Shown here: one piece after another, positions 15,236 to 37,073 of the stretch
Position numbering within the stretch: the stretch's first letter is position 1
Layout: every line of letters starts with the position of its first letter
Source: Elusimicrobiota bacterium
GTDB taxonomy: Bacteria > Elusimicrobiota > Elusimicrobia > Elusimicrobiales > UBA9959
Direction: 5' to 3'
DNA: 43,123 bases
NCBI GenBank assembly: GCA_016234365.1
Contig: JACRER010000065.1
Location: 1 to 43,123 of the forward strand
The notes under the pieces: generated by a model
What the model was told of the DNA's origin: nothing
Database searches by the model: none
The model's input: the letters and a program-made list of their open reading frames with translations, nothing else
Made by a program: the position numbers and the translations under genes

Positions 15236-15270
15236 AAAGGGCCGCGCGTAAAGCGCGGCCCTTTCTTTTC
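15236..15270. terminator. Bidirectional terminator between convergent operons
   Basis: A perfect 12-bp stem (aaagggccgcgc at 15236-15247 with gcgcggcccttt at 15253-15264) and a GTAAA loop. T-rich sequence follows on the plus strand (cttttcc). The A-rich run at 15229-15238 provides the U-tract on the minus strand. It can end both the hemW group and the downstream surface-protein operon. Confidence 0.85.
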
Positions 15271-15281
15271 CAGCCGGGACG

Positions 15282-16211
15282 TCAGAACTGCAGCCAGAAA
15301 CCGAACCGGTGAATGCTGCCCAGCTCGCCGAAGGGCAGGAAGGCGTAATCCACGCCCAGACCGGAAACCTTCACGCCGAAACCGAGGCTCAACCCCACCT
15401 CTCCGCCCAGGTTGGAAGTGTCATAACCGAACTTATAGCCGCCGCGCAGCGCGAAGGCCTTGCGGAACCAGTACTCCGCCCCCACCGAGGGATAGAAGCG
15501 CTCGTCCTGCAGGTACTCGGCTATCTCGACCGCGGCGTTAAGCTGCGGCGAGACCTTGTACAGGCCGCCCGCCCTTAGGCAGACGGGCAGCGGGTCCGAT
15601 TCCTCGTCGAACTTCATCTTTGTGCCCAGGTTCTGCACGGCCAGCGCCAGGTTCAGCTTGTCCGTGGCATGGTAGATGGCGCCCGCGTCGGCGGCGGCCG
15701 CGAAGGCGGTCTTGTCGTCTATGGCTGAGCGGATGAACTTCACCGAAACGCCGCCGTCCAGCCTGGGCAGGGAATCCGGCATGAACTCGGCCTTGGCGTA
15801 GGAGAGCGTGACCGCCATATCGCTGGAACTGAAGTCCCCCAGCTCCGGCACCGCGCCGGCCGCGTCGTTGAGCCCACGCTTCTCTATACCTCCCACCGTC
15901 ATGAACGTGGCGCCGAACCCGAAGCGGTTCCCCGCGGCCTCGCCGGCATAGGAGACGTTGCCCATCTTGGCGTCCTGCAGGTAGGTGCTGAAGTCGAAGG
16001 CGGCTTCACGCGTTTCGAACTGCGCGAGGCCCGCCGGGTTGACGAAGACCGCTCCTGAGTCGTCGGCCAGCGCGCTGAACGCGCCCCCCATGGCCACGGC
16101 CCGCGGGCTCATGGCCGCCTTAAGGAAGGGAGCCGCGGTGGTGCCCGCCCCGGACGCGTGCAGCGCGGCCGGCAGGGCCAGGGCCAGGAAAGTTATAAGT
16201 ATTTTCTTCAT
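15282..16211 (-). CDS. PorV/PorQ-family outer-membrane protein (copy A)
   Basis: A 309-aa exported protein with a signal peptide (about 1-19, ending LHASG). The family motif GTTAAPFLKAAMSPRAVAMGG is followed by DDSGAVFVNPAGLA, the hallmark of PorV/PorQ (UPF0164-like) barrels. It ends in Phe (FGFWLQF), as expected for an outer-membrane beta-barrel. PorV of the Bacteroidota type IX system shuttles cargo bearing C-terminal Ig-like signal domains. Here it is the last gene of the downstream four-gene operon, 25 nt after the 3069-aa giant, with GAGG about 7 nt before its ATG. It is paralogous to the 31191-32096 gene: both share the NPAxLA region and a D-Y-A-F/Y-x-P-F-G-E/D-L-G near the end. A shuttle role is inferred. 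Confidence 0.85.
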   Translation of the reverse strand: MKKILITFLALALPAALHASGAGTTAAPFLKAAMSPRAVAMGGAFSALADDSGAVFVNPAGLAQFETREAAFDFSTYLQDAKMGNVSYAGEAAGNRFGFGATFMTVGGIEKRGLNDAAGAVPELGDFSSSDMAVTLSYAKAEFMPDSLPRLDGGVSVKFIRSAIDDKTAFAAAADAGAIYHATDKLNLALAVQNLGTKMKFDEESDPLPVCLRAGGLYKVSPQLNAAVEIAEYLQDERFYPSVGAEYWFRKAFALRGGYKFGYDTSNLGGEVGLSLGFGVKVSGLGVDYAFLPFGELGSIHRFGFWLQF

Positions 16212-16236
16212 ATGTGCCTCTTTAATTTCCGCCCGG

Positions 16237-19200
16237 CTATTTTACGATGGCCAGCTTATGCGCTTTATTCCCCAGCTTCTTGCCGTCTAGGAACGTCAGC
16301 ATGAAATACACGCCGGAAGCGCAATCCTGGTTGTTGTCGTTCTTGCCGTCCCACTCCGAGTAGTAGATGCCGTTGGTCCCGGTGGAGTTGTCGCGCAGGC
16401 CTTCGTCTATGGTGCGCACCTTTTCGCCCGCCAGGTTATAGATGACGAACTTCAGGTTCCCCGACTTGCCGGCCGGCAGGTTGTACTTTATCAGCGTGCC
16501 GGCGGTGGCGTAAGTAGCGCCCAGAATGCCCTGCCCGTCGGAACTCACGTTCACCGTTTTGGATTTAAGGTTGAACGGGTTGGGCAGGTTCACCACCTCG
16601 AACGAGGAACTGTAGGCGGCTTTGCCGGTGGCCGGCTTGGCGGTGAAGACCGCGAAGCGGCCGGTCTGGCCGGAGGAGCCCGCCGCGCTGGGCACATAGC
16701 GCCCGTTGCGCACCGCGCTCATGCCGAAGCGCTTGCGGCCCAGCGGAGTGGTGGCGCCGCCGCCGCTGCCCTCGTAGGCCAGGCCCAGGCTGGAAACGTC
16801 CACGCTGACTATGCCGGTCATAGGGTCCACGGTGTAGTTGCCGGGGATCTCCTTCCAGGTGCCGCTCGCCGCGTCGTACTGATAGATGCGCAGGCCGCCG
16901 GTATTGAGCGCGCGCTCCTTGTCGTACTTCAGCGTCAGCGTGAACGGCTTGTTGGGCTGGGCGTTGGAGAGGTCCATGTTGTAGACCTCGGAAGCCATCA
17001 GGTTAGTGATAGCCGCTTCCAGCGACAGGTTGCCCTTGGCCGTCTTCACGGTGCGCACGCTGGGCAGCGCGCTGAAGAACCCGCCCACCAGGTTGGAGAA
17101 GTCCGCGGTGCCCGACGAAGTGGTTATGGCGCCCGCGTCCAGCTCTATGCCGGAATACTCTTCCGTCTCCTGGTCCATCACAACTTCGCCGCCGGCTATG
17201 GCCGCGTCCTGGATGTACTGCTCGGTCTTGGCGTCGTTGGTCTGGTCGTAGAGGATGGTCTTCTCCATGCGGTTGTCTCCGTCGCCGGCGGCCACGTAGA
17301 CCATGTAATACTGCCGGTTGGAGGACACCGTGAACTGGCCAAGATAACTGTTATTGGCCCCGGGCACCAGCGCCAGGCTTACGGCGGAGGTGGCCTCGTA
17401 GACTTCGCCGGGGTTGTACCGGCAGGACGGGGTGGTGACCAGCGCCTTGGGGCTGTTAATTACCACCTCCACCTTGCTGACCGAATCCGGAGACTTGCGC
17501 ACCTTCACGGTGATCTGCGGCGGGATATCGCGCAGCACGATGTCGTCCACCACGGTATCGCCGTTAATGGCGGTCACCTCTATGGTCTCGGGCAGTTTGC
17601 CCTCCATAAAGGCCGACACCTTGTAGAGATGCCCTTCCACTATGCCGGTTATCTCGTAAGAGCCGTCCTCGGAGGTCTGCGCCTCTATCTTGGGCAGGTA
17701 GGCCGTGGGCGAGCCCACGTTCAAAGTCTCGTCGTAGGCCACCAGCTTGATGCCCTGGCTGGTGGAAGGCGACGGGAATTTGCCCAGGTAGACCTTGCCG
17801 CTGATGCTGGACTCGGTGGGCGTCATGTAGAAGTTGAACGCGGCCGAGTCGTTGCCGGCCAGGCCGGTCTTCTGCCCGGTCTTCACAAAGCCGTCCTTGG
17901 TTACTTCCAGGCGGTAGATGCCGGCCGGCAGGTTGCCGAACGAGAACGCGCCGGAAGAATCCGTGACCGCGAACTTCTCCACGGTGCGGTGTTTAAGGTA
18001 GACGCGGGCGTTGGAGAGGGCCTCGCCGGTGGCGGAACTCCTCACCACGCCGGAGATGCCGCCCACCACGAACGTCTGCGCGTCGAAGTTGAAGTCGTAG
18101 GCCGCATCCTGGGGCAGCTGGACCTCCTTGGCCACGGGCGGGTAGTTGGGGTTAACGAACACCGCGGTGTAGCGGCCGGGCGGCACGCCCCAGACCAGGT
18201 AGCGCAGCGGGTTGGCGGCCAGGGAATTCAGCACCAGGCTCTTGTCTTTCTGCTGTATGCCGGCCTCGAAGGCCGCGATGGCGGTCTCGTCGGGCAGGGC
18301 GTGGCCGAAACCTTTAAGGTCCCCGGCCGTGTCGTACAGCATAACGGCGGGGATCAGCGGCATGATCTCGGCGTTGAAGTTGGCGAAGATCTTGTCGAAG
18401 TCCTGATCCGAGAAGATCTTGCCGCCGGTGACGCGGCCGGTCATAATGCCCTGGCCCACCGACCCGAGGATGTTCACCGGGATAGGCTGGTCCAGGGTGC
18501 CGGGGCTGGTATCTGATTTTTTCACCGTTACCCCGCGCACCTGGCCTATGAAGTTGGCGAACTGGTAGAAACTCTGCGGCTTGTACATATCGTCGCCCTG
18601 GGGGTTATAGGAAACGCCCACCACCAGGTAGAAGTCGTACTGCCCCGGCACCATGTACTTCTTATCCCACGTCGCGGAAGCGGTGCTGTAGTTGAAGTAG
18701 TACTGCGGCTCCTCGAAGAAGAGCTCGGTGATGGTGCGCTGGTTCATCTGCGAGCCGGAAGGCACGCCGATGACCGTATAGGTCCACGCGGCGGTGGAGA
18801 TCTCCGGCAGGCCGAAGATCTGCGGCTGCACCACCAGGCCTGCCTGCAGCGTCAGTTTAACGTCGGTGGTCTTGCCCACGCTGACCGCCACGTTATCCAG
18901 TTCCACAGGGGGCCACCTGAACCCGGTGCCCTTGGGCTTCAGGTAAATATCATAGGTCCCCGGCGGGATATTGGGGAACTCGAAGGCGCCGTAGTCGTCC
19001 GTGCTGCTGCCGTCGTTGAACTGCACCGTCTTGCCGCGCAGTTCGATATCGACGGAGTAGGTTTCGGCGCCGGAGTATACGGGCTTGAAATTGGAGCCGT
19101 CCGGGAACTTAACCTGTCCGCGCAGGCCGCCGGCCCGGGTGAGCGTAAAGTCCATCCGCACGGTATCGGTGGAGGTGAACTCGGCCCCGTCGTTGAACGA

Positions 19201-22200
19201 GGAGAGCATGCCCCAGTCCGAGGAATAGATCTTCACCCAGTAGTCCACGCCCGAGGATAGCGCCACGCTATAAGCCGTGGTGTTTGAGGTGAGCCTGCCG
19301 GAGAAGGAGCTGAAGCCCAGCTGGCGGCTCTGGCAGTTCCCGTCGCAGTTCTGCATGGCCATCACCACTACCGGGGAAGACGCCGGGATCTCCAGCGGGG
19401 AGGCCTCGGTTACCGTATACGTGGTAACAAAGGTCAGGCTGCCATACAGCGTACCAAGAGAGTTGCCTCCGGCGGGCGCCAGGTTGAACTGCAGGTTGTC
19501 GGCCGCGAGGCAGTCTCCGATGCTGTTAAGCACCCAGACCTTGCCGGGAGCGCACACGGAACTGGTGCTTCTCGCGACATCAGACGAGATGGTAACGCGC
19601 AGATCGTCCGTATTGGAAGTCTGGTCATTGCCGGAGTTGAGGTCGCGCCAGGTGCCCATGAACTCTGCGTTCAGGCGCGCGTTGCCGTCGGTCAGGCCGG
19701 TTATGGTAAAAGAACCGTCGGCCCCCGTCTTCACTTTAGCGTCGGTGCGTACCCCGGAGTTATAGACCCGTGCGTAAGAGTCGGTGCCTGAGACCCAGTT
19801 CGAGTCGCCGGTCAACATAACGTTGGCATTAGGCAGAGGGGTCCCGTTATATTTCAGCACGCCGGTCAGGGTGTAGGTGGCCAGCGTCAGCATGTAGTCC
19901 CGGGTCAGTGTCATGCCGGTGGAAATACAGATGCCCCAGGCATTGGCCACAGTGCAGTTGCTATTGCCGCCCTCATTGTAATTGCTGTAGCCCTGCTTCT
20001 TTATCCCAAGGTTGTAACTCAAAGCGGACCCCGGCACGTCGTTGAAGACGGCGCGGCCGTTCACGTCGGTCAGGTTTTCGTAGGAGATTATCCTGGTCCA
20101 GCACGGATTGCCGCCGCAGTTGGTGGTGCCGTCGGGCCCCTCTTTGTAAAGCTCCACGCGTACGCCGTCCAGCGGGGCGCCCCAAGTGGAGCGCACCACG
20201 GCCTGGAAGGAGGGCGGCACGGTGGAGCCGCCCACCGCGTAGCCCACCATGGCCACGGCGCTGGTCATGTCTACCGTGTAATTGGCGGTGCCGGGGAAAG
20301 GCTGCGTCAGATACAGCATGGCGGCCTTGTTCTTGCCGGGCACGCTGATATTGAAACCGTACACGTTGCCGTCCGCCGGGGGCACGTTGTGCAGCGTGAT
20401 GGAGGTGTTGAACGAAGTGGACCTGGCCACGCCGTAGGCGGCCTTGTCGCCGTTCTTAGTGTAGAAGACCTCGCCCATCAAGTAGTCGCCGGCCACCAGG
20501 CCGGAGGACACGAACACATTGAGCGTGTAGCCGGGCTCGCTGGCGCCCTTGCGGTACAGCTTGTACTGCCGGGTGGTATCGCCGGTCAGGTTCACCATGA
20601 AGGAACCGTACGGGTCCATCAGCTGGTCTTTGATGGTGGGCTTGTAGCCCGGCGTGGAAATGCCCACGAAATACTGCATGCCGGCGGGCAGGCGCGCGCT
20701 GAAGTAGCCCGAGGCGTTGGCGCTGCCTATCACCATTATCTCGGGGTTCACGCCGCCGCTCTGGTCGAACGGCATTACCACCACCGGGGCCCCGGCGGCG
20801 TAGGCGCCGGCGGTTCCCGAGGTTATAAAGACGGAGAGCAGCGGGTTGCTGTTGGAAAGGATAAGCTGGCGATAACGGTACGCGCCGAAGCCGCCGTTGA
20901 ACTCGCCGGTGGCGTAGACGTAGCCGTTGGTATCCACGTGCACGTCCCAGCCGCGCTCGTAGGAGGAGGGCCCACCGTTAAAAGAGCGGGTCCAGATTAT
21001 ATTGCCTTCGGGGCTGAATTTGCGGATGAACAGGTTCTCCCCCTGGTTAATGTCCCAGCGGGACTCGGAACCCACCACGTAGACGGACCCCTGGTGGTCC
21101 AGCGCCACGTTTCCGGCCGTGTCGTAGCTATTGGCGGGATCGTTGTAAGTGGCGGTCCACTGTGCCGGGGCGGAAAGGTCCGAGGCGGCCAGTTTGGAAA
21201 CCACTATATCCCCGCCGGTATCCTGGTTGTAGACGGTAGCCGCCACATAGACGTTGCCCGCCCCGTCGGGCGCAACGCCCGCGCCCTGGTCCCAGTTGTT
21301 GCCCGCGCCGGTAACGATGCCGGTGGAGGCCGCTACCAGGCTGGCGTCCAGTTTGGTTACAAAGGCGTCCGAGCCGGTGCCGGCGTTATTAATATTGCCG
21401 GCCGCGTAGAGCACGGAGTTGGTGCTGTCATAGACCAGGGCCGCTATTTCGTGGCCCCAGGTGCCGCCGTTGCCGTAGAAAGCCGCGGTGGTAAGCTGCA
21501 CGCCGGCCGGAGAGGTTTTTACGACGTAGGCCAGGTTCATGCTCCCGGCCTGGTTCTGGACGCTGCCGCCCAGGTAGATATTGCCGAGGCCGTCCGTGGT
21601 AACGGCGTAGCCGTTGTCGTAATTGCGGTCGAAGTCGTAGTTCTTGCTCCACAGCAGCGTGCCGGCGGCGCTGTACTTAACGGCCATCAAGTCGTTCTTG
21701 GTCTCGCTGTCCCAGGAGCCGCGCGAACCGGCCACTATTATATTGCCGTCTTTGTCCGCAGTCACCGCCTGGGCCTGCATGTTCTCGTTAGAGCGGGCCG
21801 CGAAGAACTTGGTCCACGCCACGCTCATGTCCAGGCGGTATTTGCGCAGCACGAACATGCTGCCGCTCCCCGCGGCCGCGGCGCCCGCGGCGGGCATGCC
21901 CCAGTAGTTGGCCGCAATGTAAAGGTTCCCCTGCCGGTCCCTGGCGGACCGGTTGCGCCAGCTGCCGGTATTATTTATGGTCCAGACCTTGCTGTCCGGG
22001 TAGGTAACCAGGCCGCTCTGCACGTCGGGCGTATTGGCGTAGGAGGTGGCGGTACCCGTAAGCGCAACGGGGACCGACCCGTCGAACGACCAGACGCGGA
22101 AGTAATAGTTGGGAGAACTTATGGCCCCGGCGCCGTCGCGGCTGGCGTCCAGGCCGCCTATGGTGTAAGCCTGGTACATGCCGGAGGAAACCGGCCCGGT

Positions 22201-25200
22201 GGTATAGACCACAGTCTGGGCCGAAGTGTAAGCCCAGGGACCGGCGGCGGAGAGGCTGGACTGGAAATAATAGGTGGAGCTGGCAGGCAGGTCCGACGGC
22301 GCGGTCCAGAAGAGCTCCGCCGTGCCCGGGTAGGCGCCGGGCCTGGCGCCGATATTGAACGAAGGCGGCAGGAAGGTATAGATACCAGGCCTGTTCATCT
22401 CCGAGGCTCCGGCAAAAATGCCGGAGCCGTCCAGCAGCACGGTCCTGGCTATTTCGCTGTTGCTGCCGCTGACGCCGCTGTCGAAAGTTTTTGCCCACAG
22501 AGTGGATAAGGTTACCGGGTCCACCTTGGTTACGCGGATATCCTGACCGGAACAGTAACCCGTGACGCAGTTGCGTTGCTCGTAGCCGGCGGTGTAAACG
22601 TCGCCGCCATAATAGGTCACGCCGTAGTTGTACTGCATCATGTTGGCGGCGCTGACGTAGGTGGAGGCCGCCACCAATTGCAGCGAAGAACCGTCGTGGT
22701 CCGAGAATTTGCCCAGCCACGCCCCCTCCTGGGCGGGCCCCACGTTCAGTTTGCCAGCGGCATAGAGCGCGGAACCGGGCCCGTCCGCCAGGCCAAAGGC
22801 CTCGTCGAAAGCGGGGCTGGAGATCACGTTCTCGTACTGCGGGGCGCCGGTAACCGGCGAGAACCTGGCCAGCCAGATATCGGTGTCGCTGGCCGTAACG
22901 CCCTTGCCGCCGGCCGCGTAGACCGCGGCGGTGGTGACAGCTATAGCGTTAAAACGGTTGCCCATGCTGCCGGGCACGGCGTCCACGGTGGACGACCAAA
23001 GTTCGAAACCGGCCGGGGAGAACTTTTTCACCATCGCGGCATAGTCGCTGCCGCTGGTCTTCAACTGGCCGGCTATATAAATGCTGCCGGCAGGGTCCAG
23101 CCCTACGGCGTAGGCGTAATCCATACCCATGTTCAGGCCGGGCAGCGTGCGGCTCCAGGCGAGAGCGCCGCCGGGCAGGACAGCCGCGAGGTAGACGTCG
23201 TCCATGTTGGAGGGGTCGGAGTTGAAGGAACCGGTTACATAAAACACGCCGGCCGTGGAAACCGCGAGCGACCGGATGCTGAACATCGGGTAGGAGTTTA
23301 CCGTCGGCGCCGTGTTGTTGTAGAAACGGGTCCACTCGTAGCGGCCGGTAGCCTTATCGTATTTGCGCAGGGCCCAGCCGCCTTCCATGCTGGCGCCGCC
23401 CATCAGGCCGTAAGCCTGATAAATGTTGCCGGCGGCGTCCATGGCCGTGGGGAACATCCAGCCGTCTCCCCCCTCCGACACGGTGAACCTGGACTGGGGA
23501 TAAACGGCGACGGTATCGGTGAACGCCGGCGTGCGGGGCTGGGCGTAGACCGGGGCCCCCATGGACACGGTGCCTATCCAGACCGAGAAATAATGCTGCT
23601 GCGTAGTGATATTGCCTGCCGCGTCGCGCGACGCCGGCAGGCCGCGCACCAGCACGCCGTCGCCGATACCGGAGGGGACCGCCGCGGTGGTAATGTCTAT
23701 CTGGGCCGCAGCCGTACTCCAGTTAAAAGCGGCGGCGGTGCTGTACTGCACGTAGATATGGCTGCCGCCGGTAACGGCAAAAGGATAGTTCCAGTTGAGC
23801 TGCACGGAACCCGTGTACTGGCCGGAGTAAGCGCCGAGCTGGAAGGGGTTGCCGCCGGCCTGCGGGAAGGCGTAAAGGCCGTAGGCGTCGCCAAACTGGC
23901 CCGCCAGCAGCACGCCGCCGGCGGTGCTGAGGTCTACGTCGTAAAAAGCGTCCTCCACGGAGGTGGAATAGGTGCGGGTGGACACCAGCTGGCCGTCGGA
24001 AGTGTATTTGAAGTAAAGCGCGTTGCGGCCCTGGCCCAGGTCCATCCTGGTTTCATAGCCGGCCACATAAACGCCGTTAAACTTATCCACGGCGCAGGCA
24101 TAGGCTTCTTCGTTCTTATTGTAGTTGGCGTAAGGGTTATCGTAAGTCCGGGTCCACACTATGGTGGACAACGACAGGTCGAACTTGTGGAGCGCCAGGT
24201 TGCGGCCCTGGCTGAGGTCGTTGCGGTCTTCGTAGCCGCACAGGTAGGCGAAGCCGGCCGAGGGGTTCACAGCCACGCCGTTTGCCCCGTCGTAGCCGTT
24301 GCCGGGACCATTATAATCCCAGAAGGCCATCCGCACGCCTGCGGGGCTGAATTTGGCCAGATGCATATCGGCGTAGCTGGGGCCGCCGTAGGACTGGCCC
24401 GAGGCGTAAACGTAGCCGCTGGTATCCAGCGCCAGGTCGCCCAGGAAATCGTCAGAGTTGGCCACGCCCGTGCTGTTGTAGATCCGCTCCCACATCTGCA
24501 CTCCGGTAGCGGGCTGCAGCCTGGCCACCCACATATCCCGGGAGGTAGTGGAGGTTTCCACAAAATAACCCGCCGCGTAAAGGGCGTCGGTCGCGGGATA
24601 ATAAGCGATAGCCTGCGCGGAGTCCCAATAATTACCGCCGGCGTCGGCGCGGGTTTTGGTCCATAGCAGTTCGCCCGAGGCGCTGTACTTGGCCGTAAAA
24701 ATATCCGTATCATTGCCGTTGTAAAGCGAGCCGGCGATATAAACCTCGCCGCTGGCGGGGTTCACCGCCACGGCCCGGCCGTAGTCCCAGCCGCTCATGT
24801 AGGGGCTGTTGAGCAGGCGCGTCCACTGCAGGGCGCCGGCGGCATTATACTTGCGCAGCACTATCTCGCTGCCGCCCAGGTTGGTGTTAGTGGTGAAGGT
24901 GTTGAGCAGGTAAATGTTGCTGTTCGCGTCCACGGCCATGCGGCCGCCAAAATAGTCGCGCAGGCCGTTCTCCAGAGTAAGCGTGCCGCCGCCGTAAGGA
25001 GTAATGGAAGGAGCCGTGAAGGCCGGCGTATTAGCCAGAGCCGCGGACCCGGCCGAAGCGGGCGACAGGACGGAAGACATCTCCACCCAGACCTTAAAAG
25101 TGTACGTCGGCCCGTTAACGGCCCCGGCGCCGCTGCGGCCGGCGTTCAGGCCGCCTATCACAGCCGTCTGCAGGCCGGTCACTCCGGGGCCGGTGGTTAT

Positions 25201-25446: not shown

Positions 25447-25466
25447 AGGTTCTCCTGGAAAACATA

Positions 25467-25488
25467 CGCCCGCCGCAAAATGCGGGCG
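25467..25488 (-). other. Intra-operon hairpin before the giant gene
   Basis: A 7-bp stem (cgcccgc at 25467-25473 with gcgggcg at 25482-25488) lies between the barrel gene and the giant gene. It has no following U-tract on the minus strand, so it is more likely an mRNA processing or stability element than a terminator. Confidence 0.4.
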
Positions 25489-25503
25489 GAACTTCCGCTT
25501 TGT

Positions 25504-26724: not shown

Positions 26725-26736
26725 GGTCATGTCCCC

Positions 26737-28179: not shown

Positions 28180-28233
28180 ACGCAACTCCTTGGAATTTAT
28201 TACTGGTTACCCCGTTAAAATCGTGAAAATACC

Positions 28234-28271
28234 CAAAAAAACCACCCCCTCATTATATTATCATGAGGGGG
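28234..28271 (-). terminator. Rho-independent terminator separating the two surface operons
   Basis: A 9-bp stem (ccccctcat at 28245-28253 with atgaggggg at 28263-28271) is followed on the minus strand by TGGTTTTTTTT. It ends the upstream operon 35 bp after the FecR-B stop. The downstream FecR-A operon therefore needs its own promoter within 28180-28233; candidate -10 is TAATAA near 28201-28206, without a good -35. Confidence 0.85.
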
Positions 28272-28280
28272 CAGTGTCAA

Positions 28281-28296
28281 CGTGACAAAAGTCACG
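28281..28296. promoter_or_regulatory. CRP/FNR-like palindrome ahead of the downstream surface operon
   Basis: cgtga-caaaag-tcacg is a perfect palindrome with the GTGA-N6-TCAC core recognised by CRP/FNR-family regulators. It lies between the FecR-B stop and the terminator, about 100 bp upstream of the FecR-A start. As RNA it could also form a 6-bp hairpin. A related site precedes the other operon at 37205-37220. Confidence 0.4.
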
Positions 28297-28305
28297 CAGG
28301 AAGGC

Positions 28306-29943
28306 TCAGTTCACGGTGAGGCTGTCCGCTGTGGTCGTGGCCGCCTTTTTCTGGCTCAGTATCTCTGGCGCGAACAGTACGTCTATGTTGCGGCCCTGGA
28401 ACAGGCTGGAGTCTATGACCATTTCCAGGTTGTAACTGCCTTCCTTGAGGAAGGTGGTGGAGTCGGCGTTGCCGCCTATGCCCAGGATCTCGCCCTCGTT
28501 GGAGACCAGCAGCTTGCGGGACGACACCGTGGAGTTGTCGGCGTAGAGGCTGCGCACGTAGTAGTCGGCCAGGCCAGGCCCGCTGGGGAAGTTGCTGTAG
28601 GCCGGCGTGAGGGCTTCCGGGTCTATAGCGGGGTCGTACAGCGTAGCCGTGCCGCCGCCGCTCACGCTGGCGGCCGAGGCTGGGTTCAGGGTGACCTGGT
28701 ACATATCGGCCAGCACGCCGGAAGCGTTCACCACTTTCTGCGTGAAGGTGAACTCGTTGGCGGTGGTGACGTTATAGTCCTGTATCTGCCGGAACTGCAC
28801 GCGCTCATCGGAGGCCAGCGAAGACAGCCCGGTATTGGTGAGCGTTCCCACGCCCGCGGCCAGGGCCACGCCCGGACCCGACAGGATCTGCCTGTAGTCT
28901 ATGGAGCCGGGGTAGTAGCGGTAGTCCGCCGAGCCGCTACCGGTATAGCCCCTGAAGTCTATCTGCACGGGGGCGGTGAAGTCGATGGTCTCCTTGATAC
29001 TGTCCACGGTGTTGGTCAGGTAGACTTCGAAGTATTTCATCCAGTTTGTCGGGGCGGTCCTGGAAAGGTACATCCCGTTTATGATCTCGCCCACCTGGCT
29101 GATGTCGTCGGGAATAGCCGTGTTGAAGCGTTCGATCAGGTGGCCCCAGTCCAGGCGGTCCGCTTCGGCGCGGCGACTGAGGAACAGCAGCTTGAATTCG
29201 GAATCGGACGGGCGCAACAGGTATTCTTCAAGACGTACGCGCTTGCCGAAAGCGTCTATGGAATCCTTGCCGAGCTGGGCTTCGTTGGCCTTCAGTTCGC
29301 GGTTGCGCAGCTCTTCCAGCATGGTGCGGGTGCGCTCGCGGGCGGTTTCCTGGCGCACGGCCATGGGGCGGGCGGCCAACCCGGCGCGGTTGTCTTTAAG
29401 CGGGACGGACTCGGGTTTGGACATGCCGTCCATCCCCACCTTGATCCGCTCCTCGGAGGAGACCACGGCCATCTTGCCCTTGGAATCGTTGACCTCTACC
29501 AGGCCTTCGGCCACGTTCATCTCGGTATTGCCGTCCTTGCCCACTTCCAGGTCGAACTCGGTGCCGCGCACGGCGCAGACCGCGGCCGGCGTGCGGACCT
29601 CGAAGCGGCTGGAAAAATAGCCGGCCACCGAGGCCTTCAGTTTACCGAAGGCCAGTTTGAACCCGGCTTTTTTCTTGGTGGTATCCTCCACGGCGAACTG
29701 GGTGTCGTTGCCCAGCTGGAAGCGGGTACCGTCGGGCAGCAGCACGGCGGCCTTGGAATCTTTGCCGGTGCGGATCTCGGCGCCGGGGCGCACGCGCACC
29801 CCGTCCTTCACCGACACCCAGCCGGAAGTGGCGGACGTACGCGCGTCCACGGTTCCCTCGGGCAGCAGCACGATATCCTGCGTCTTGGCGGCGCAGGGGG
29901 CCGCGGCCAGGAGCAGCGCGAATAAGGCGTTATAGGTTTTCAT
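28306..29943 (-). CDS. FecR-domain protein of the surface module (copy B)
   Basis: A 545-aa exported protein with a signal peptide (MKTYNALFALLLAAAPCAA). A FecR domain occupies about residues 30-150 (VSVKDGVRVRPGAEIRTG, FEVRTPAAVCAVRGTEF). The region after it matches copy A in DAFGKRVRLEEYLLRP and SSLFQGRNIDVLFAPEIL, so the whole protein, not just the FecR domain, defines the family. The middle (about 330-480) is less conserved. The ATG at 29943 begins 2 nt after the barrel stop, with GGAGG inside the end of the barrel gene. An upstream ATG at 29958 lies in the barrel gene and is less likely. It is the last gene of the upstream operon and is followed by a terminator. No sigma factor is adjacent. 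Confidence 0.85.
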   Translation of the reverse strand: MKTYNALFALLLAAAPCAAKTQDIVLLPEGTVDARTSATSGWVSVKDGVRVRPGAEIRTGKDSKAAVLLPDGTRFQLGNDTQFAVEDTTKKKAGFKLAFGKLKASVAGYFSSRFEVRTPAAVCAVRGTEFDLEVGKDGNTEMNVAEGLVEVNDSKGKMAVVSSEERIKVGMDGMSKPESVPLKDNRAGLAARPMAVRQETARERTRTMLEELRNRELKANEAQLGKDSIDAFGKRVRLEEYLLRPSDSEFKLLFLSRRAEADRLDWGHLIERFNTAIPDDISQVGEIINGMYLSRTAPTNWMKYFEVYLTNTVDSIKETIDFTAPVQIDFRGYTGSGSADYRYYPGSIDYRQILSGPGVALAAGVGTLTNTGLSSLASDERVQFRQIQDYNVTTANEFTFTQKVVNASGVLADMYQVTLNPASAASVSGGGTATLYDPAIDPEALTPAYSNFPSGPGLADYYVRSLYADNSTVSSRKLLVSNEGEILGIGGNADSTTFLKEGSYNLEMVIDSSLFQGRNIDVLFAPEILSQKKAATTTADSLTVN

Positions 29944-29945
29944 GT

Positions 29946-31166
29946 TCAGAACCTCCACTCCATGCCGGCGAAATACGAGGAGCTGTTATAGTTGTATCTG
30001 TAGACCTGCTCATACCTGTTGTTGGAGCTGGAATTGGCCCACGTGCCCTGCAGTTTCACGTCCAGCGAGCGGGCCACGGGGTAGGTGGCGTCGGCGGTGA
30101 AACTGCTGGAATACTGCGCCAGGTTCTTTGATGTGTAAGCGCCGTCGCCCTTCTGCGTAAGGCGCTCGGCGTAACCGCGCACGGCGAACTCGTAAGAGAG
30201 CCGCGTCACCAGCCCGGGGCCGATGAACGTGAATTGCGCGCTCGGCGCCAGGCGGACTTCCGAGTAATCGTAGTAAGACTTAACGAATTTCAGCCTGGCC
30301 GGGTCCGTGTCCAGGTGGTTCTGGTTGGAGATAAGGTTGGCCAGCGTAACGCCGGTGCCCAGCAGCGGGCGGATGCCGCCCAGGAAGTCTATGTCGTTGT
30401 AGCGCTTATACATGGCCACGTTCAGGGACTGGTAATAATCCGAACGCTTGGCTTTGTAGCGGCCTTCCGAGTCCACTATCTTCTGGTCCTGGTAATCTAT
30501 CATCGCCACGGCCAGCAGCACGTCCAGCTTTTTAAAGTTGGGCAGGTCCATTTCGCTCTCGTAGGAGAACTGGTTGGTGAGCGTGTCCAGCACGCGTTTG
30601 CCGGGGTTGGGCGCGGCCAGTTCCTGGCCGTACTGGCTCGCGAGCGACTTAAAGCGCGTGTAGCGGGTGTAATAGGCGTCCCAGGAAAGCTGCCAGGTCC
30701 ACGGGGTGGACAGGCCCCAGCGCGTCTTGCGCTCCAGGGTCAGGCCTCCGTCGTAGCGCATGAAGTCGTAAAGGCCTTTGCCCCATTTCTCGTCCTTGGT
30801 TTCGCGGAAGAGCTGGTTCTTAACGGCCACGCGGGGCTTGAGCGAGTAGCCGCCCTCGTAGCGCCTTATCCACTTGCCGCCCAGCGAGCTGTCCAGGCTC
30901 TGCTGGAACAGCGTGCCGCCGCCGGCGAGCTCGTTGACCTGCTTGAAGCCGGTGTACACCGAGCGCGCGCTCACAAAAAAGCCGGAGCTGGAGGAATAGC
31001 TTTTGGCCAGTTGGGCGTCCAGTATGCCGTAGCCGTTGAAGGCGCCGGACTGGCTGCCAAAGAAATACTGGCCCCCGTAAAGGTCCAGTTTTCCCGTAAA
31101 ATCAAAGCCCCCGGCCACGGCGCAAGCCGGGGCCAGGAGCAGCAAAGCTGCTATAAGTTTTTTCAA
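29946..31166 (-). CDS. Outer-membrane beta-barrel protein of the surface module (copy B)
   Basis: A 406-aa exported protein with a short signal peptide (LKKLIAALLLLAPACAVAG, first residue read as Met). Many amphipathic strands follow and the protein ends YNSSSYFAGMEWRF, a terminal-Phe barrel signal. Its length equals that of copy A. Blocks shared with copy A are ELAGGG, KPRVAVKNQLFRETKDEKWG and the terminal YRYNYxSSxYxAG. The initiator at 31166 is TTG with GGGGAGAA about 8 nt upstream; no ATG fits the signal peptide. It lies 25 nt after PorV-B and 2 nt before FecR-B, firmly inside the upstream operon. I cannot assign a substrate; the constant pairing with FecR and giant proteins is the best clue. 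Confidence 0.78.
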   Translation of the reverse strand: MKKLIAALLLLAPACAVAGGFDFTGKLDLYGGQYFFGSQSGAFNGYGILDAQLAKSYSSSSGFFVSARSVYTGFKQVNELAGGGTLFQQSLDSSLGGKWIRRYEGGYSLKPRVAVKNQLFRETKDEKWGKGLYDFMRYDGGLTLERKTRWGLSTPWTWQLSWDAYYTRYTRFKSLASQYGQELAAPNPGKRVLDTLTNQFSYESEMDLPNFKKLDVLLAVAMIDYQDQKIVDSEGRYKAKRSDYYQSLNVAMYKRYNDIDFLGGIRPLLGTGVTLANLISNQNHLDTDPARLKFVKSYYDYSEVRLAPSAQFTFIGPGLVTRLSYEFAVRGYAERLTQKGDGAYTSKNLAQYSSSFTADATYPVARSLDVKLQGTWANSSSNNRYEQVYRYNYNSSSYFAGMEWRF

Positions 31167-31190
31167 GTTGTCGTTCTCCCCTGTGATGTG

Positions 31191-32096
31191 TTAAAAAACG
31201 AACCCCAAAGTCATCCTGTGCGTGTCGCCCAGGTCCCCGAAGGGCACGTAGGCGTAGTCGAAGGTGAAGCTGTCGTAGCGCAGGCCCAGGCCCGCCGCCA
31301 GGCCCGCCAGGCCTCCCAGCTTGTCCTGGCTGCGGCCCAACTGGTAGCCGGCGCGGAAGTCCAGGTAGCGGTTGAGCATGTATTCGGCGCCCAGGTCCAG
31401 GTACATGCGCTCGTCGTTGGCCAGCCAGTCCAGGTCCGCGGCCGCGGTCAGTTTGTTCTCGAAGAACCTGGTGGACGCGCCGCCTTTAAAGATCAGCGGC
31501 AGCTTGTCCGGGCCTATCTTGCCGCCCAGGTTCTGGATCACGAAAGCCGCGGTCCAGTCCTTGTTCACGGCGTAGGTGGAACCCAGGTCCAGCGCCAGCG
31601 CCTTGTCGCTCTGCGCATCCAGCTTCTGCTGGATATACTTAAAGTTGGCGCCCAGCGCCAGGCCTGGTTTCACCTCGGCGCGCGCGTAAGACAGCGCCAC
31701 GGCCGTGTTGTTGTTGCTGAACTTGGAATCCGCGTTGTCGGAATCCGAAGCGCGCTTCTCTATATTTGAGACGGTCAGGTAGTCCACGCCCACGCCAAGC
31801 GTTCCCATGTCCTCTTTGAGCGGGGCCGCGTAGCCCAAAAAGCCCTGCGACTCGTCGATGAAGAGCATGTTGTAGCTGGCGCTCACGTGCTTCTGTTTAA
31901 GGCCGGCCAGCCTGGCGGGGTTCCAGTAAATGGCGCCCGCGCCCTCGGAGAGGGAGCTGGCGGCCGAGCCGAGGGCCAGTTCCCTGGCCCCAACGCCCAC
32001 TTTAAGGAAGCTCGCGCCGGTGGTACCGGGGCCGGCGGCTTGCGCCGCGGCCGCACCCAGCATCAAAACCGCTGAAAGGCATATTTTAAGTTTCAT
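31191..32096 (-). CDS. PorV/PorQ-family outer-membrane protein (copy B)
   Basis: A 301-aa exported protein with a signal peptide (about 1-20, ending AAQAAG). GTTGASFLKVGVGARELALG and GAGAIYWNPARLAGL are the PorV/PorQ signature. Strand-rich sequence follows, with a final FDYAYVPFGDLGDTHRMTLGFVF region ending in Phe. Copy A shares the GTTxAxFLK and NPAxLA blocks. It follows the 1650-aa giant gene by 24 nt, with GAGGAGA about 4 nt before the ATG. In Bacteroidota, PorV delivers type IX cargo to the sortase; here the neighbouring giant protein has a comparable C-terminal Ig-like domain. Acting as that protein's outer-membrane partner is inference. Confidence 0.87.
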   Translation of the reverse strand: MKLKICLSAVLMLGAAAAQAAGPGTTGASFLKVGVGARELALGSAASSLSEGAGAIYWNPARLAGLKQKHVSASYNMLFIDESQGFLGYAAPLKEDMGTLGVGVDYLTVSNIEKRASDSDNADSKFSNNNTAVALSYARAEVKPGLALGANFKYIQQKLDAQSDKALALDLGSTYAVNKDWTAAFVIQNLGGKIGPDKLPLIFKGGASTRFFENKLTAAADLDWLANDERMYLDLGAEYMLNRYLDFRAGYQLGRSQDKLGGLAGLAAGLGLRYDSFTFDYAYVPFGDLGDTHRMTLGFVF

Positions 32097-32120
32097 AGTC
32101 TCTCCTCAGTTTCAACCGGG

Positions 32121-35100
32121 CTACTTTATCACTACCATCTTGAACGTATAGTTCTTGGGGTCCGGTTTTTTGCCGGCCAGGTCCACCACGCCGTAGTAGA
32201 CGCCGTTGGCCACTTCCTGGCCGCCGGAGTTATGGCCGTCCCACGCGAAGTAGTTATACTTCCCGCCGGTGCAGGTGTCGCTGATGTCCTTAACCAGTTC
32301 GCCGGCCAGCGTGTAGATGCGGATGTGGCAGGCGCCCTCGTTGGCGGCCGGTACTTCCACGTGGATCATGGTGCCGTTGGTGGTGGCAGGCATGGTCGCG
32401 CCGTGGTTGTTGGCCATGGCCTTGGACTTCAGGTTGAACGGGTTGGGGTAGTTGAACACCTTCAGCTTCCCGTTCGGGTTGGGCAACGCGCCGCCCAGGT
32501 AGTTCATTACGGCGAACGTACCCGCGGTAGTGCCGGCGCCGGTAGCCTGCGCCCGGAAGACGTACTGTTTCCCGTCGAACACGGCCTGCGGCGAAGCGCC
32601 GGGCCTGGCCAGCACGGAAGCCAGCTTTTTAAGTTTGACGGTTATAGTACCCTTCACCGGGTTTACGGTGGCGGGAACTATGGAAGCGTCCTCCCACTTG
32701 CCGGTGCCATTGTTATACTGCTTCATGGTCAGGCCGGAAGTGTCGGTGATGGTCTTGTCGTAGGCCAGCGTCAGTTCCACGGGGCGGTCCGTCTGGGCCA
32801 CGCTGGACAACGTTACCGTGTAGAGGTTGCTGGCCACGGTGGCGCCGGTATCGGCGGCGGCCGTCTTGGTAGAGACAGACGCGTTGTCCTTGTCCTCGGC
32901 CTTGAACGAACAGGTAGGGACCGTGGCGCTGCCGGTGCTGGTGATGAGCGCGCCGGCGGGCATTACCAGCGAGGACGGGTCATCGCCGGTCCTGTCGGCG
33001 GCGGCCTCGTTGTTCTTGCGGCCGGTGCCGTCGTCGGAATCGTCGCCCAGCATCAGGTCGTCTATGTGCTGGTCGGCGTTGCCTTTGTAACTCTTGCCGA
33101 ACAGCAGTTCGCGCACCACGGACTTGCCGGAGTAAGAGACCGCGGCCCCCTGCAGCACGTAGGTTTTATTTGGATTAAGCAGGGAAAGGTCTACTTCACC
33201 GTGCAATTCTCCGCTGGACAGCGTGGTCATGGTGACCGTGGAAACGGCGGCCGGGTTAAGCGGCGACTCGCCCCAGATCACGTTGCCGGTCTTGAAGTCC
33301 TGCGGATTGAGCACAGTGAACTCGTATACCTGGCGTCCGGAGTTCATCCTGCCGAACACCTCTATGTCCAGCGGCTTGGCCAGCATGGTAAAGTCCACGC
33401 CTGAGACCAGGCCTGCGGTGGCCGGGGTGCTCACGCTGAGCGTGTACTTGCCTGGCACCTTAAGGAAGACCTTATAAGTATGCCCGGTCACCAGGCCGTC
33501 CAGTTTATACGTGCCGTCCGAGCCGGTGCGCGTTTTCATGAGCGGCAGCGGCATATCCTGGTTCAGGCCGTTATAGGTATCGTCGTACGCCACTATCTGC
33601 GCGCCGGACTGCACCTTGGCGAAGGGCAGTTTCTGCGAGTAGACCGTGCCGGTTATGGAGCCGGGCGCGTTGAACAGGTAGATGTTCTGCGTGTAGGCGT
33701 TGCTCCCGCGCACGGACACTTCCGCGGAAGTCACGGCGTAGCTGGACATCGTCACGGTAACCTTGGCCACGCCGGCCGAGAGGCCGTCGAAGCGGTAGGA
33801 ACCGTCGGCGCCGGTGGCCGCGGTGCGCGTCTCCGAACCCTCCATGGTCAGCTCCACGGCCGCGTTGGCCAGCACAGCCAGTGTCGGGGTGGACTTAACC
33901 ACGCCGGAAATGGTACCGCCGGCGCCCACCGCGGTATCCAAGTTTATATTCAGAGTGGCTTTGGTGGCGTTGCCGCCCGTGCAGACCCGCTTCTGATAAT
34001 GCGGGTAGTTAGGGGTGCTAAGCACCGCGGTGAAGCATTTGTTGGGCGCGAGCCCGCGGATCTCGTAGCCGAGGCCGCCGGTAAGCGAACCCAGGAAGTC
34101 GCGGAACTTGGTGTAGCCCTGCATGAAGTTCAGGTTGAACTCGGCGTCATGTTTGGAGATCTCGTTAGGCGGCGGCACCACTATGCCGGCCGCGGCAAAG
34201 GCGCCGTTATCCTCGCGGTAGAGCGCCATGACCGGCAGGTATTGTACGAACTTATCAAAATCCCCGCCGCAGGCGTCGTAGTCGGCCTGCCTGAAGAAGT
34301 TGGCAGCGATCACGCTGCCGCCAATGCGGGCATTACCGCGCCCGGACAGGTCGTCAACAGGCGTCAGGTCCACCAAGATGCCGGAGTACTTGCTGTTGGT
34401 GGAAGACCAAACGTCGGTGGTAGAGCTATCCGCGTTCACTATCACGTTCTTGGAGGAAGTGACCATGGTGAAGTGCGGATACGGCCTGTCGGCTATCTCG
34501 CTGCCGTCCATCTTGCCGAAGTCGCCGGAGCGCATCAGGTAGAAGTCGAACACGGAAGGCGACGGCAGGGCCGCGGCGCAGAAGCCGCCGGGCCATTTCT
34601 CGCCGCACGGGGTATCGTTCTGGTTGGCGGCGGTGGGGCCTGAATAGCGGAACTTGCGCTCATTGTCGTTATCGCCGCCGGTCAGCATCTTGATTATGGT
34701 GCCGGTGTTGAACACCGACCCGGCGCTCAGCGGCACCACCTTGAACCCCAGGATCTGGTCCCAGCCGCTGGTGACCACGGTAGATTCTGGCATCTTGGCC
34801 AGCGTGAACTTGGGCTGGACGTATTTGGCGTCCACCAGGTTGATGTTCAGCGTAACCGTGCTGCCGGCCACCACCGTAACGTTGGGGGAAGGCGAGGGCA
34901 GGGCATAATCGAAGGAAGTGCCGGAGGAACCGCTGGACCCGTTGCTGTTCACATAGAGCGACACACGGTTGACACCGGGCAGCACGTCGGGCAGCGTGAA
35001 AGTGCCGTCCTTCTGCAGCTGTGTGCCGGACCAGCCGTTGTTGTTATTCATGTCCACCCAGATATACTGGCTGGAGGAAGGCGCGTAGACCGTGCCGTCC

Positions 35101-37073
35101 GGCTTGTACATGGTCCCGGACACCTGGCCGGCCTGCATGAATTCCATGTCCACAACGACCGTGCCGGTGGAAACCAGGTTAATGGTGTTGTCGCCGCCGC
35201 CGCGGTTCACGCGGCCCCAGCCTACGGCGTTCACGTTCATGTAGTACTTGAAGCCGCTGGACACGTTTATGGTGTAGGTCTGGCTGGCGCCGCTTCCGTT
35301 AACGGCGATAAAGTTGCCGGTGGGGCAGTTGCCCATCATGTCCTGGCACTGGCCGTACAGCGTGATCATGATAGGATTATTGCTGAGGTCCACGTTGCCG
35401 GGGAACTTTATTGTTCCGGTGACCTTACCGCTGGTGGACCCTACGGTGGTCGGCACTATATAGGTTATCGAAGAAAGATTCACGGAACCGTCCGTGACCA
35501 GCACGCCGCTGCTGTTATAGATGTGCAGCATCTGGTTGTCGCCAAGGGCCGGGTTCGTCTCGACATAGACGCGGTAGTCGTTAACCCCGGTACCGGAACA
35601 ATGCGCCTGGTTCCAGTTCATGCCGCCGCCCGTATTCCCCCAGGCGGTAAAGTCATCCCCGTTGCCGTTATAGGCGGCCTGCGACCCGCCGCTGTTGGAG
35701 AAAGGCGTCCAGACGTTCACGGAGTAATTGCCGGTAGGCAGGCCGCCGGCCGTCACGCAGCCGTTGGCGCCGGTATTGAAGTTCTTGTTGGAGAAGCCGG
35801 GCTCGAAAGTATAGTTGGAAGGGTTGTTGTCAACGCACGGAGCCCCGGGTTTGGCCCAAGGGGTGCCGTCCGGGTTGAAATTCACCGTGGCGTTGGGGAT
35901 GGCAAGCCCGGAGGCGGATTTCACGCAGATCTTCACGGCGCCGGAGCTCTCGGCCATCTCGTTGAGGATAATGCGCACGTTTTCAAGGTTGGAAGCGCCG
36001 CCCTGGTAAACCGGCTTGGCGGCAATAGAACTGAGATAAACGAAGTCATTAAGGCCGCGGGGCGCGTTGGCGCAGAGGTCAGCGTTAGTAAGGATGGACG
36101 GGCTGCGGTACGGCTCATAGCATTTGCCGGGGCCGCTCTGGCTCCAGGTGCAGCCGCCCATAGCTTCGGCGTAATAGGTGGCGCCAATGGTGAGGCCGGA
36201 CAGCTGGAAGCGGCCGTTCTCGTCCACATTGGTCCACAGCGAGTTATTGCAGGAGCGGAAGCTGACGCCCATGCGCGAGATCGGGGACCACAGGTTGGCG
36301 GTACCGGAACTGCGGACTATACCTTCCAGCTTGCCGCTGGAAGAAGTCTGGCTGGCGGAGGTGTTGTTATTATCCACGCGGGCCGGGGGTATGGAATTGT
36401 CGAAATCCGATTTATTAGCGGTGTCGTAGGAGATTATATTGCTGTTCAGCGCCGTGCCGACGTTGCGCCCCACGCCGCGGTTGAGCTGCGGGTCGTAAAG
36501 GCCGATATTGTAGGTATTGGATTCGGCGTTGGGAACGTTGTCCACCACCAGGAACCCGTTGCCGCTACCGTCGGTCATGACGATGCCCGAACCGCCCTGC
36601 TGCTGGGACTTCATGTTATAAACGCCGCCAAAGAGCAGCGTATTGGCCGTGGCGTTGGCGAATTCAAGCCGGAGCTTGCCCACCCCGGTCAGGCCGGAAG
36701 TGACGGTGAAAATAGAATTGCGGGCGACGCCGTCCGCCCAGACATACTTGGCCGGGTTATATTCGGGGTTGTTGAACTGGTCGGCGAGGCTGGGGGTATA
36801 GCCGTGAGTGCTGTACATCACCATGTAGTTCTTGTTGTCGGCCAGCGTAAGGGTGACGGTGCCCTTGGTGACCCCGGTGTTTGGGGTAACGGCCATCTGC
36901 GAATTGGACGTGGGGCCGTTCTGGCCGAACTCTATGGCGGCCACGGTCACGTCACCGACGGCATTGCCGCTCTGGTCCTTTATAAACACGTTGAGCGTAG
37001 TGGCCGCGGAAACCGCGGAACTCAGCGCTATCGCCGCCGCCGCCGACAGGACTATTTTTTTAAACAGGCTCAT
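32121..37073 (-). CDS. Large secreted surface protein with regulatory-like repeats and FlgD-like C-terminus
   Basis: A 1650-aa exported protein with a signal peptide (MSLFKKIVLSAAAAIALSSA). From about residue 24 it contains a long series of carboxypeptidase-regulatory-like / prealbumin-like beta modules (TLNVFIKDQSGNAVGDV, GTISGVVKSTPTLAVLANAA, GSITGTVYSQKLPF). A predicted stalk region follows (about 1340-1530), then a FlgD-like Ig domain at about 1536-1650 (NYPNPFNLKSK, IRIYTLAGELVKDI, GVYYGVVDLAG, ending MVVIK). The whole protein resembles residues 1527-3069 of the giant at 16237-25446, without the propeller units. The ATG at 37073 has GGAGG 5 nt upstream and gives the signal peptide; the upstream ATG at 37124 does not. 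It is the first gene of the upstream operon. Confidence 0.88.
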   Translation of the reverse strand: MSLFKKIVLSAAAAIALSSAVSAATTLNVFIKDQSGNAVGDVTVAAIEFGQNGPTSNSQMAVTPNTGVTKGTVTLTLADNKNYMVMYSTHGYTPSLADQFNNPEYNPAKYVWADGVARNSIFTVTSGLTGVGKLRLEFANATANTLLFGGVYNMKSQQQGGSGIVMTDGSGNGFLVVDNVPNAESNTYNIGLYDPQLNRGVGRNVGTALNSNIISYDTANKSDFDNSIPPARVDNNNTSASQTSSSGKLEGIVRSSGTANLWSPISRMGVSFRSCNNSLWTNVDENGRFQLSGLTIGATYYAEAMGGCTWSQSGPGKCYEPYRSPSILTNADLCANAPRGLNDFVYLSSIAAKPVYQGGASNLENVRIILNEMAESSGAVKICVKSASGLAIPNATVNFNPDGTPWAKPGAPCVDNNPSNYTFEPGFSNKNFNTGANGCVTAGGLPTGNYSVNVWTPFSNSGGSQAAYNGNGDDFTAWGNTGGGMNWNQAHCSGTGVNDYRVYVETNPALGDNQMLHIYNSSGVLVTDGSVNLSSITYIVPTTVGSTSGKVTGTIKFPGNVDLSNNPIMITLYGQCQDMMGNCPTGNFIAVNGSGASQTYTINVSSGFKYYMNVNAVGWGRVNRGGGDNTINLVSTGTVVVDMEFMQAGQVSGTMYKPDGTVYAPSSSQYIWVDMNNNNGWSGTQLQKDGTFTLPDVLPGVNRVSLYVNSNGSSGSSGTSFDYALPSPSPNVTVVAGSTVTLNINLVDAKYVQPKFTLAKMPESTVVTSGWDQILGFKVVPLSAGSVFNTGTIIKMLTGGDNDNERKFRYSGPTAANQNDTPCGEKWPGGFCAAALPSPSVFDFYLMRSGDFGKMDGSEIADRPYPHFTMVTSSKNVIVNADSSTTDVWSSTNSKYSGILVDLTPVDDLSGRGNARIGGSVIAANFFRQADYDACGGDFDKFVQYLPVMALYREDNGAFAAAGIVVPPPNEISKHDAEFNLNFMQGYTKFRDFLGSLTGGLGYEIRGLAPNKCFTAVLSTPNYPHYQKRVCTGGNATKATLNINLDTAVGAGGTISGVVKSTPTLAVLANAAVELTMEGSETRTAATGADGSYRFDGLSAGVAKVTVTMSSYAVTSAEVSVRGSNAYTQNIYLFNAPGSITGTVYSQKLPFAKVQSGAQIVAYDDTYNGLNQDMPLPLMKTRTGSDGTYKLDGLVTGHTYKVFLKVPGKYTLSVSTPATAGLVSGVDFTMLAKPLDIEVFGRMNSGRQVYEFTVLNPQDFKTGNVIWGESPLNPAAVSTVTMTTLSSGELHGEVDLSLLNPNKTYVLQGAAVSYSGKSVVRELLFGKSYKGNADQHIDDLMLGDDSDDGTGRKNNEAAADRTGDDPSSLVMPAGALITSTGSATVPTCSFKAEDKDNASVSTKTAAADTGATVASNLYTVTLSSVAQTDRPVELTLAYDKTITDTSGLTMKQYNNGTGKWEDASIVPATVNPVKGTITVKLKKLASVLARPGASPQAVFDGKQYVFRAQATGAGTTAGTFAVMNYLGGALPNPNGKLKVFNYPNPFNLKSKAMANNHGATMPATTNGTMIHVEVPAANEGACHIRIYTLAGELVKDISDTCTGGKYNYFAWDGHNSGGQEVANGVYYGVVDLAGKKPDPKNYTFKMVVIK

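Follow-up and report, generated by a model that had tools for sequence, protein, structure and literature searches.

Closest described systems and the four-gene locus

A broad survey of 2016 placed the type IX secretion system (T9SS) in Bacteroidetes only (PMC4793230). In the PorE-PorP-PG1035 system of Porphyromonas gingivalis and the cargo-SprF-PorE operons of Flavobacterium, an outer-membrane barrel holds the cargo and is itself believed to be linked to the cell wall by a periplasmic protein (PMC9143113, PMC12618676); in Flavobacterium johnsoniae, all type A cargo is served by one PorV (PMC12618676). Here we describe a 43,123-nucleotide stretch of an Elusimicrobiota bacterium (contig JACRER010000065.1, hereafter the window; contig C44 in a 2.7-Mb genome), in which two adjoining operons, A and B, each encode a giant protein, a PorV-family protein, an outer-membrane barrel and a FecR-domain protein. 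It is, in our judgment, an even call that each four-gene operon serves type IX-like secretion as a unit dedicated to surface display.

The locus resembles the PorE-PorP-PG1035, SprF-SprB and cargo-SprF-PorE systems in that cargo, an outer-membrane barrel and a periplasmic partner are encoded or found together, and the holding of cargo through a barrel tied to a periplasmic protein, known from PorE-PorP-PG1035 and SprF-SprB, is proposed here as well. However, the parts differ: the barrel has no detectable PorP_SprF similarity; the periplasmic protein, compared with PorE, is of the FecR type and has no TPR or OmpA-like domain; and the tail of the cargo resembles the FlgD/type A kind, not type B, with a PorV as part of the locus. 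PorV/PorQ-family proteins beside FlgD-like/TIGR04183-like tails, together with an SprA-like protein in the genome, recall the PorV shuttle of type A cargo. No description of the four-gene combination was found in the literature searched, nor any relevant literature linking Elusimicrobia with PorV or FecR.

Two paralogous operons

Operon A (giant-PorV-barrel-FecR, 37073-28306, minus strand) has intergenic gaps of 24, 24 and 2 bp and adjoins operon B (FecR-barrel-giant-PorV, 28179-15282, minus strand), where the gaps are 6, 57 and 25 bp. The original prediction had read these eight genes, all on the minus strand, as two adjoining operons that each hold one member of four paralogous families in differing order, and this was confirmed down to the gene coordinates (Table 1). 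PorV-A and PorV-B are 34% identical (305 columns, E 2e-41), the barrels 30% (E 4e-38), the FecR proteins 33% over ~295 residues (E 4e-46), and the giants 27% across their last ~1150 residues (E 1e-70). Searches of the window for tRNAs and Rfam families returned no matches.

Giant A carries a signal peptide, three CarboxypepD_reg repeats and a C-terminal FlgD/type IX-like domain; giant B begins with three SBBP/delta-60 beta-propeller-like stretches and also has CarboxypepD_reg repeats and a FlgD/type IX-like tail. The earlier description of both giants as FlgD-tailed holds: CarboxypepD_reg and FlgD_ig were matched in the giants, FlgD_ig passing its cut-off in giant A only. Membership of the PorV family (NF033709, cut-off 90) is clear for both PorV-A (170.6 bits) and PorV-B (174.6 bits).

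Conservation of the gene neighbourhood in the phylum

Among 341 Elusimicrobiota genomes, a profile of the two barrels matched 146 and a profile of the FecR protein C-terminal domain alone matched 145; both were present in 138 genomes, only the barrel in 8, only the C-terminal domain in 7, and neither in 188 (Fisher p 2e-75, a value that ignores kinship among genomes). Adjacency is for this reason the stronger evidence. A FecR gene lies at most one gene away from 89 of the 105 distinct barrels, and a giant and a PorV usually come next. The genome studied here has only three such barrels and three FecR genes with the C-terminal domain, each barrel being at most one gene from such a FecR gene, and the pattern is repeated phylum-wide; the adjacency is thus far beyond chance, and a chance arrangement was rejected on this conservation and on the genome co-occurrence. 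The check suggested with the original prediction, whether the families co-occur as neighbours, thus gave a positive result, and the opposite outcome, in which they occur independently of each other, was not observed.

The commonest order, conserved in many families of the phylum, is that of operon B (e.g., L131, L134, L092, L094, L099, L100 and L153). The order of operon A is seen in, e.g., L110, L111, L122 and L129, and a third order, giant-FecR-barrel-PorV, in L096, L107 and L132. Sets A and B often stand in tandem in the genus of the window and in g8, and lie on separate contigs in genome G137. The body of the cargo varies between loci (no match to the giant body in L098, L100 and L101), and its position is constant.

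A peptide-pattern search of a named collection covering 84,980 species found 125 relatives, of which 80 were kept. Their sources were Elusimicrobia, Endomicrobia or unnamed "bacterium" bins, with three labels as exceptions: Caldiserica, Clostridia and Candidatus Obscuribacterium magneticum. We take Candidatus Obscuribacterium to be an Elusimicrobiota lineage, and the Caldiserica and Clostridia labels may be mistaken. As far as these searches reach, the four-gene set occurs almost only in Elusimicrobiota, a phylum that has been little studied.

A lone barrel of the family, with no FecR, giant or PorV, was seen in L161 (9899-11128), L166 (9899-11128) and L183 (9364-10566), where it comes after a ribosomal-protein operon and a gene reading like 2-isopropylmalate synthase.

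Two building blocks

The genome encodes ~21 PorV-family genes. Among the 19 outside the locus, eight come directly 3' of a gene whose product the tail profile matches, and in two further cases the preceding protein has tail motifs. Thus, unlike the shared PorV of F. johnsoniae, about ten large tail-bearing proteins (L034, L037, L038, L218-L222, L225 and L226 in this genome, G000) are each followed directly by their own PorV-family gene. A third FecR-barrel pair, with a 247-residue protein gene between its members, lies beside the MltA and NamZ peptidoglycan genes (L032 6925-10735, G000:C60), and in L131, L134 and L136 a similar trio immediately precedes set B on its upstream side. Since giant-PorV pairs recur and FecR-barrel pairs also stand alone, the locus joins two building blocks, cargo-PorV and FecR-barrel, and the system, as read from its gene content, is modular.

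Two other arrangements were noted in the same genome. A short protein that has a FecR domain but lacks the C-terminal domain is encoded directly before a PorV and a 2340-residue protein (L033 1876-3630, G000:C13), and a PorV-family protein of 656-665 residues (L228, G000:C95:11668-12489) also matches PorP_SprF (PF11751) over the cut-off.

Origin of the two sets

Quick maximum-likelihood trees with Shimodaira-Hasegawa-like approximate likelihood ratio test supports were built for the PorVs (44 rows), barrels (84), FecR proteins (81) and giant C-termini (45). Set A formed one side of a branch in all of them, with supports of 100, 100, 100 and 99, respectively, and set A was found both in family f1 and in f15, which is distant from it. 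As set A is a single group in each tree, the sets were inherited as blocks: on this evidence, A and B are old paralogues passed on together, through either early duplication or transfer, and FecR-barrel-giant-PorV is probably the ancestral order. The joint duplication of the four pairs expected by the original prediction agrees with the trees, where unrelated origins of the two sets were not seen. The PorVs of the module stand apart from the other 19 of the genome (support 81), with A joining the core B group (support 96). A test of the A and B PorVs as one clade was badly posed, with the module PorVs of L134, L136 and L138 and the third-order PorVs falling outside, and its p value was not used.

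The idea of a rearranged duplication stands insofar as these are old paralogous sets that keep all four families, but the event was not recent and local, and the sets can occupy separate contigs; barrel scores suggest such a separation in f14-f15 genomes as well (e.g., G190, G193 and G233). A recent tandem duplication in this lineage was rejected on the 27-34% identities and the presence of both sets in several families, and the four trees give no support to rearranged copies built from unrelated paralogues.

An undescribed barrel family

Neither barrel A nor barrel B matched any Pfam or NCBIfam family up to E 0.1, PF11751 and TIGR03519 (PorP/SprF) included, and the barrel profile gave only chance matches when searched by sequence against the PDB. 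The structure model (62 sequences; predicted local distance difference test score, pLDDT, 88.8) has 16 strands, and Foldseek returned general porin-like matches with TM-scores of at most 0.59 among the best 50. An identity as a TonB-dependent receptor was rejected because its strand count and plug do not fit: such receptors have 22 strands and a plug, whereas the barrel has 16 predicted strands, no plug in the model and no Pfam match.

Under the usual rule that both ends of a barrel are periplasmic, which was assumed here for the orientation, conservation averaged 2.39 bits in the extracellular loops, 1.80 in the strands and 1.26 in the periplasmic turns, and 32 of the 40 most conserved positions fell in the would-be extracellular loops or adjoining strand ends; this contrast was reached by only 27 of 5000 circular shifts. 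That the surface loops of the modelled barrel are its most conserved part points to a conserved partner at the cell surface.

These data bear on an explanation in which the barrel and the FecR protein are a separate outer-membrane transport or export unit, like a porin or polysaccharide exporter, merely co-regulated with the giant-PorV pair within a single surface-structure programme. Its structural neighbours are indeed porins and exporters (OmpT, CymA, OmpG and AlgE), none of them specific, and FecR-barrel pairs without a giant or PorV exist (the L032 trio, L133 and L185), as do barrels alone (L161, L166 and L183). However, most loci over deep branches keep a giant and a PorV adjoining the FecR-barrel pair, in at least three orders, and surface loops as the most conserved part would be unusual in a general porin. 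We consider a separate transport unit rather unlikely.

The FecR proteins

Both proteins match FecR (PF04773) with 59.6 and 69.6 bits (cut-off 24), and the domain starts ~35 residues past the signal peptide. In the model (58 sequences; pLDDT 90.7; predicted template modelling score 0.64), it folds like the periplasmic FecR/PupR signalling domains (4m0n, 6ovk). The conserved C-terminal domain of ~250 residues, additional to what FecR/PupR proteins have, matched no PDB structure.

This likeness, in sequence and predicted fold, together with an outer-membrane barrel as genetic partner, would fit cell-surface signalling, in which the FecR protein senses the state of the barrel and regulates expression as FecR-FecA does. 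In contrast to FecR/PupR, neither the sequence nor the model contains an anti-sigma domain or a membrane-length helix besides the signal peptide, no sigma-factor gene is present in either operon, and no TonB-dependent receptor domain was found in the barrel model or family searches. The role of an anti-sigma factor was rejected for lack of such a domain, and signalling of this kind is very improbable. Leptospira LipL45 and Lsa33 are comparable as envelope proteins with a FecR domain and no anti-sigma role, and gave weak NCBIfam matches; these scores are far below the family cut-offs, however, and the proteins here have no conserved lipobox cysteine and a different C-terminal part and gene partners. 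The earlier remark that the barrel and FecR partners lie outside the description of type IX secretion proved correct, as they fit no described secretion system.

A probable type IX-like route and the proposed display unit

A 1796-residue SprA-like protein (L192 6063-11453, G000:C1) matches TIGR04189 in three stretches (E 1e-35 for the protein taken as a whole) and has no match in the PDB by sequence. Its gene sits between a ComF-like gene and two genes for membrane proteins of 362-370 residues resembling LptF/LptG. Divergent SprA matches were found in 292 of the 341 genomes, none over the cut-off, including genomes of the same order without the barrel. The genome also encodes 11 TIGR04183 tails, 10 of them over the cut-off. 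Given the divergent SprA, the locus probably acts as an accessory to type IX-like secretion: the original suggestion of an undescribed surface display system accords with the literature searched, but not as a wholly separate route.

From these sequence data, the four-gene set probably exports the giant and holds it on the cell surface. The giant would enter the periplasm via its signal peptide, and its C-terminal FlgD/type A-like domain would steer it across the outer membrane, with the divergent SprA as the passage. The PorV whose gene comes immediately after that of the giant would then take it up, acting as a private shuttle. At the cell surface, the giant would be received or held by a station made up of the barrel and, on its periplasmic side, the FecR protein, the surface loops being the putative binding face. 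By analogy, this would parallel cargo-PorP-PorE with unrelated parts, the barrel standing for PorP and FecR for PorE, plus a private PorV. Sequence and comparison show that the four genes are co-inherited, that signal peptides and the tail are present, that the PorVs belong to their family, that the barrel is predicted to fold as one and that the genome encodes an SprA-like protein; from these we infer passage through SprA, the pairing of each PorV with the adjacent cargo, contact between barrel and FecR protein, and anchoring of the cargo.

Alternatively, the barrel itself could export the giant in a two-partner-like fashion, with FecR gating it from the periplasm and PorV capping it at the surface. 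FhaC/BamA-type exporters have 16 strands, as predicted for this barrel, which is also tightly linked to the cargo. We regard this as improbable, as the barrel lacks a POTRA domain, almost every genome of the phylum offers a divergent SprA, and ~10 of the giant-PorV pairs encoded here stand without an adjoining barrel.

Several observations weigh against the display unit. The TIGR04183 (type A tail) scores of the giants are weak or absent and below the cut-off (E 0.016 for giant B), and the SprA-like match (122.5 bits) is below the curated cut-off of 200. The PorU catalytic domain was not found, the listed matches to NF033707 (22 of 31 genomes) covering only the C-terminal tail region; GldM was not found in the 31 genomes either, in a search that gave no positive in any control genome. 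Pfam matched only FecR in the FecR protein, with no known peptidoglycan-binding domain, although a novel one could lie in the C-terminal domain that has no PDB match. The orientation of the barrel, on which the surface loops depend, is an assumed one. Finally, barrels without a giant or PorV exist (the C60 trio, and near the ribosomal operon in L161, L166 and L183), so the main function of the barrel and FecR may be a different one. With an SprA-like protein and TIGR04183 tails present, and the PorU catalytic part and GldM not found, a type IX-like secretion route likely operates here but is unproven.

Promoter and terminator elements

The element at the junction of the operons was the sole one of its kind found in the window: its -10 overlaps a GC-rich terminator-like hairpin, of which it occupies loop and 3' arm, and T7 comes after the hairpin. 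The design is kept in the relatives L070, L073 and L116 with different, still complementary stems, the -35 of L116 being weak. Just upstream, a palindrome-like GTGAC-TTTT-GTCAC (28282-28295, minus strand) is a possible operator, judging by its sequence; several relatives with tandem sets carry similar GTNAC-N4-GTNAC motifs between the two FecR genes, including some with a gap of only 24-30 bp.

Table 1 Genes and regulatory elements of the locus, with positions in the window.
Feature	Position	Strand	Description	Basis or remark
Giant A	32121..37073	-	~1650 aa, first gene of operon A	ATG 37073 after GGAGGGG; FlgD_ig over cut-off
PorV-A	31191..32096	-	PorV/PorQ-family outer-membrane protein, 301 aa, 24 bp 3' of giant A	NF033709
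Barrel A	29946..31166	-	406 aa, undescribed outer-membrane barrel family	no Pfam/NCBIfam family; paralogue B predicted with 16 strands
FecR-A	28306..29943	-	~545 aa, with signal peptide, FecR domain and a conserved domain at the C-terminus	Pfam
Operon A/B junction element	28238..28282	-	perfect TTGACA-17-TATAAT promoter and terminator-like hairpin	
FecR-B	26737..28179	-	480 aa, first gene of operon B	Pfam, structure model
Barrel B	25504..26730	-	408 aa, predicted 16 strands, long (surface) loops conserved	structure model
Giant B	16237..25446	-	3069 aa	Pfam, NCBIfam, comparison with giant A
PorV-B	15282..16211	-	309 aa, 25 bp 3' of giant B	NF033709
Terminator-like hairpin	15236..15262 (approximate)	-	GGGCCGCGC-TTTAC-GCGCGGCCC then T5, end of operon B	sequence reading

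Implications for type IX-like secretion

A divergent SprA spans the Elusimicrobiota, although T9SS was reported from Bacteroidetes only in 2016 (PMC4793230), one genome holds many PorV-cargo pairs, and a nearly phylum-exclusive pair of envelope proteins travels with some of the cargo. We suggest, at somewhat less than an even chance, that type IX-like secretion in Elusimicrobiota is a branch of its own, with a private PorV per giant and one cargo class held by a new type of anchor, which combines a hitherto unknown 16-strand barrel with a FecR-type periplasmic protein whose C-terminal domain is also new. If true, this would be a second way to hold type IX-like cargo at the cell surface; the barrel and the FecR C-terminal domain would serve as a marker for finding such loci, and the natural pairs would allow the study of cargo-shuttle specificity.

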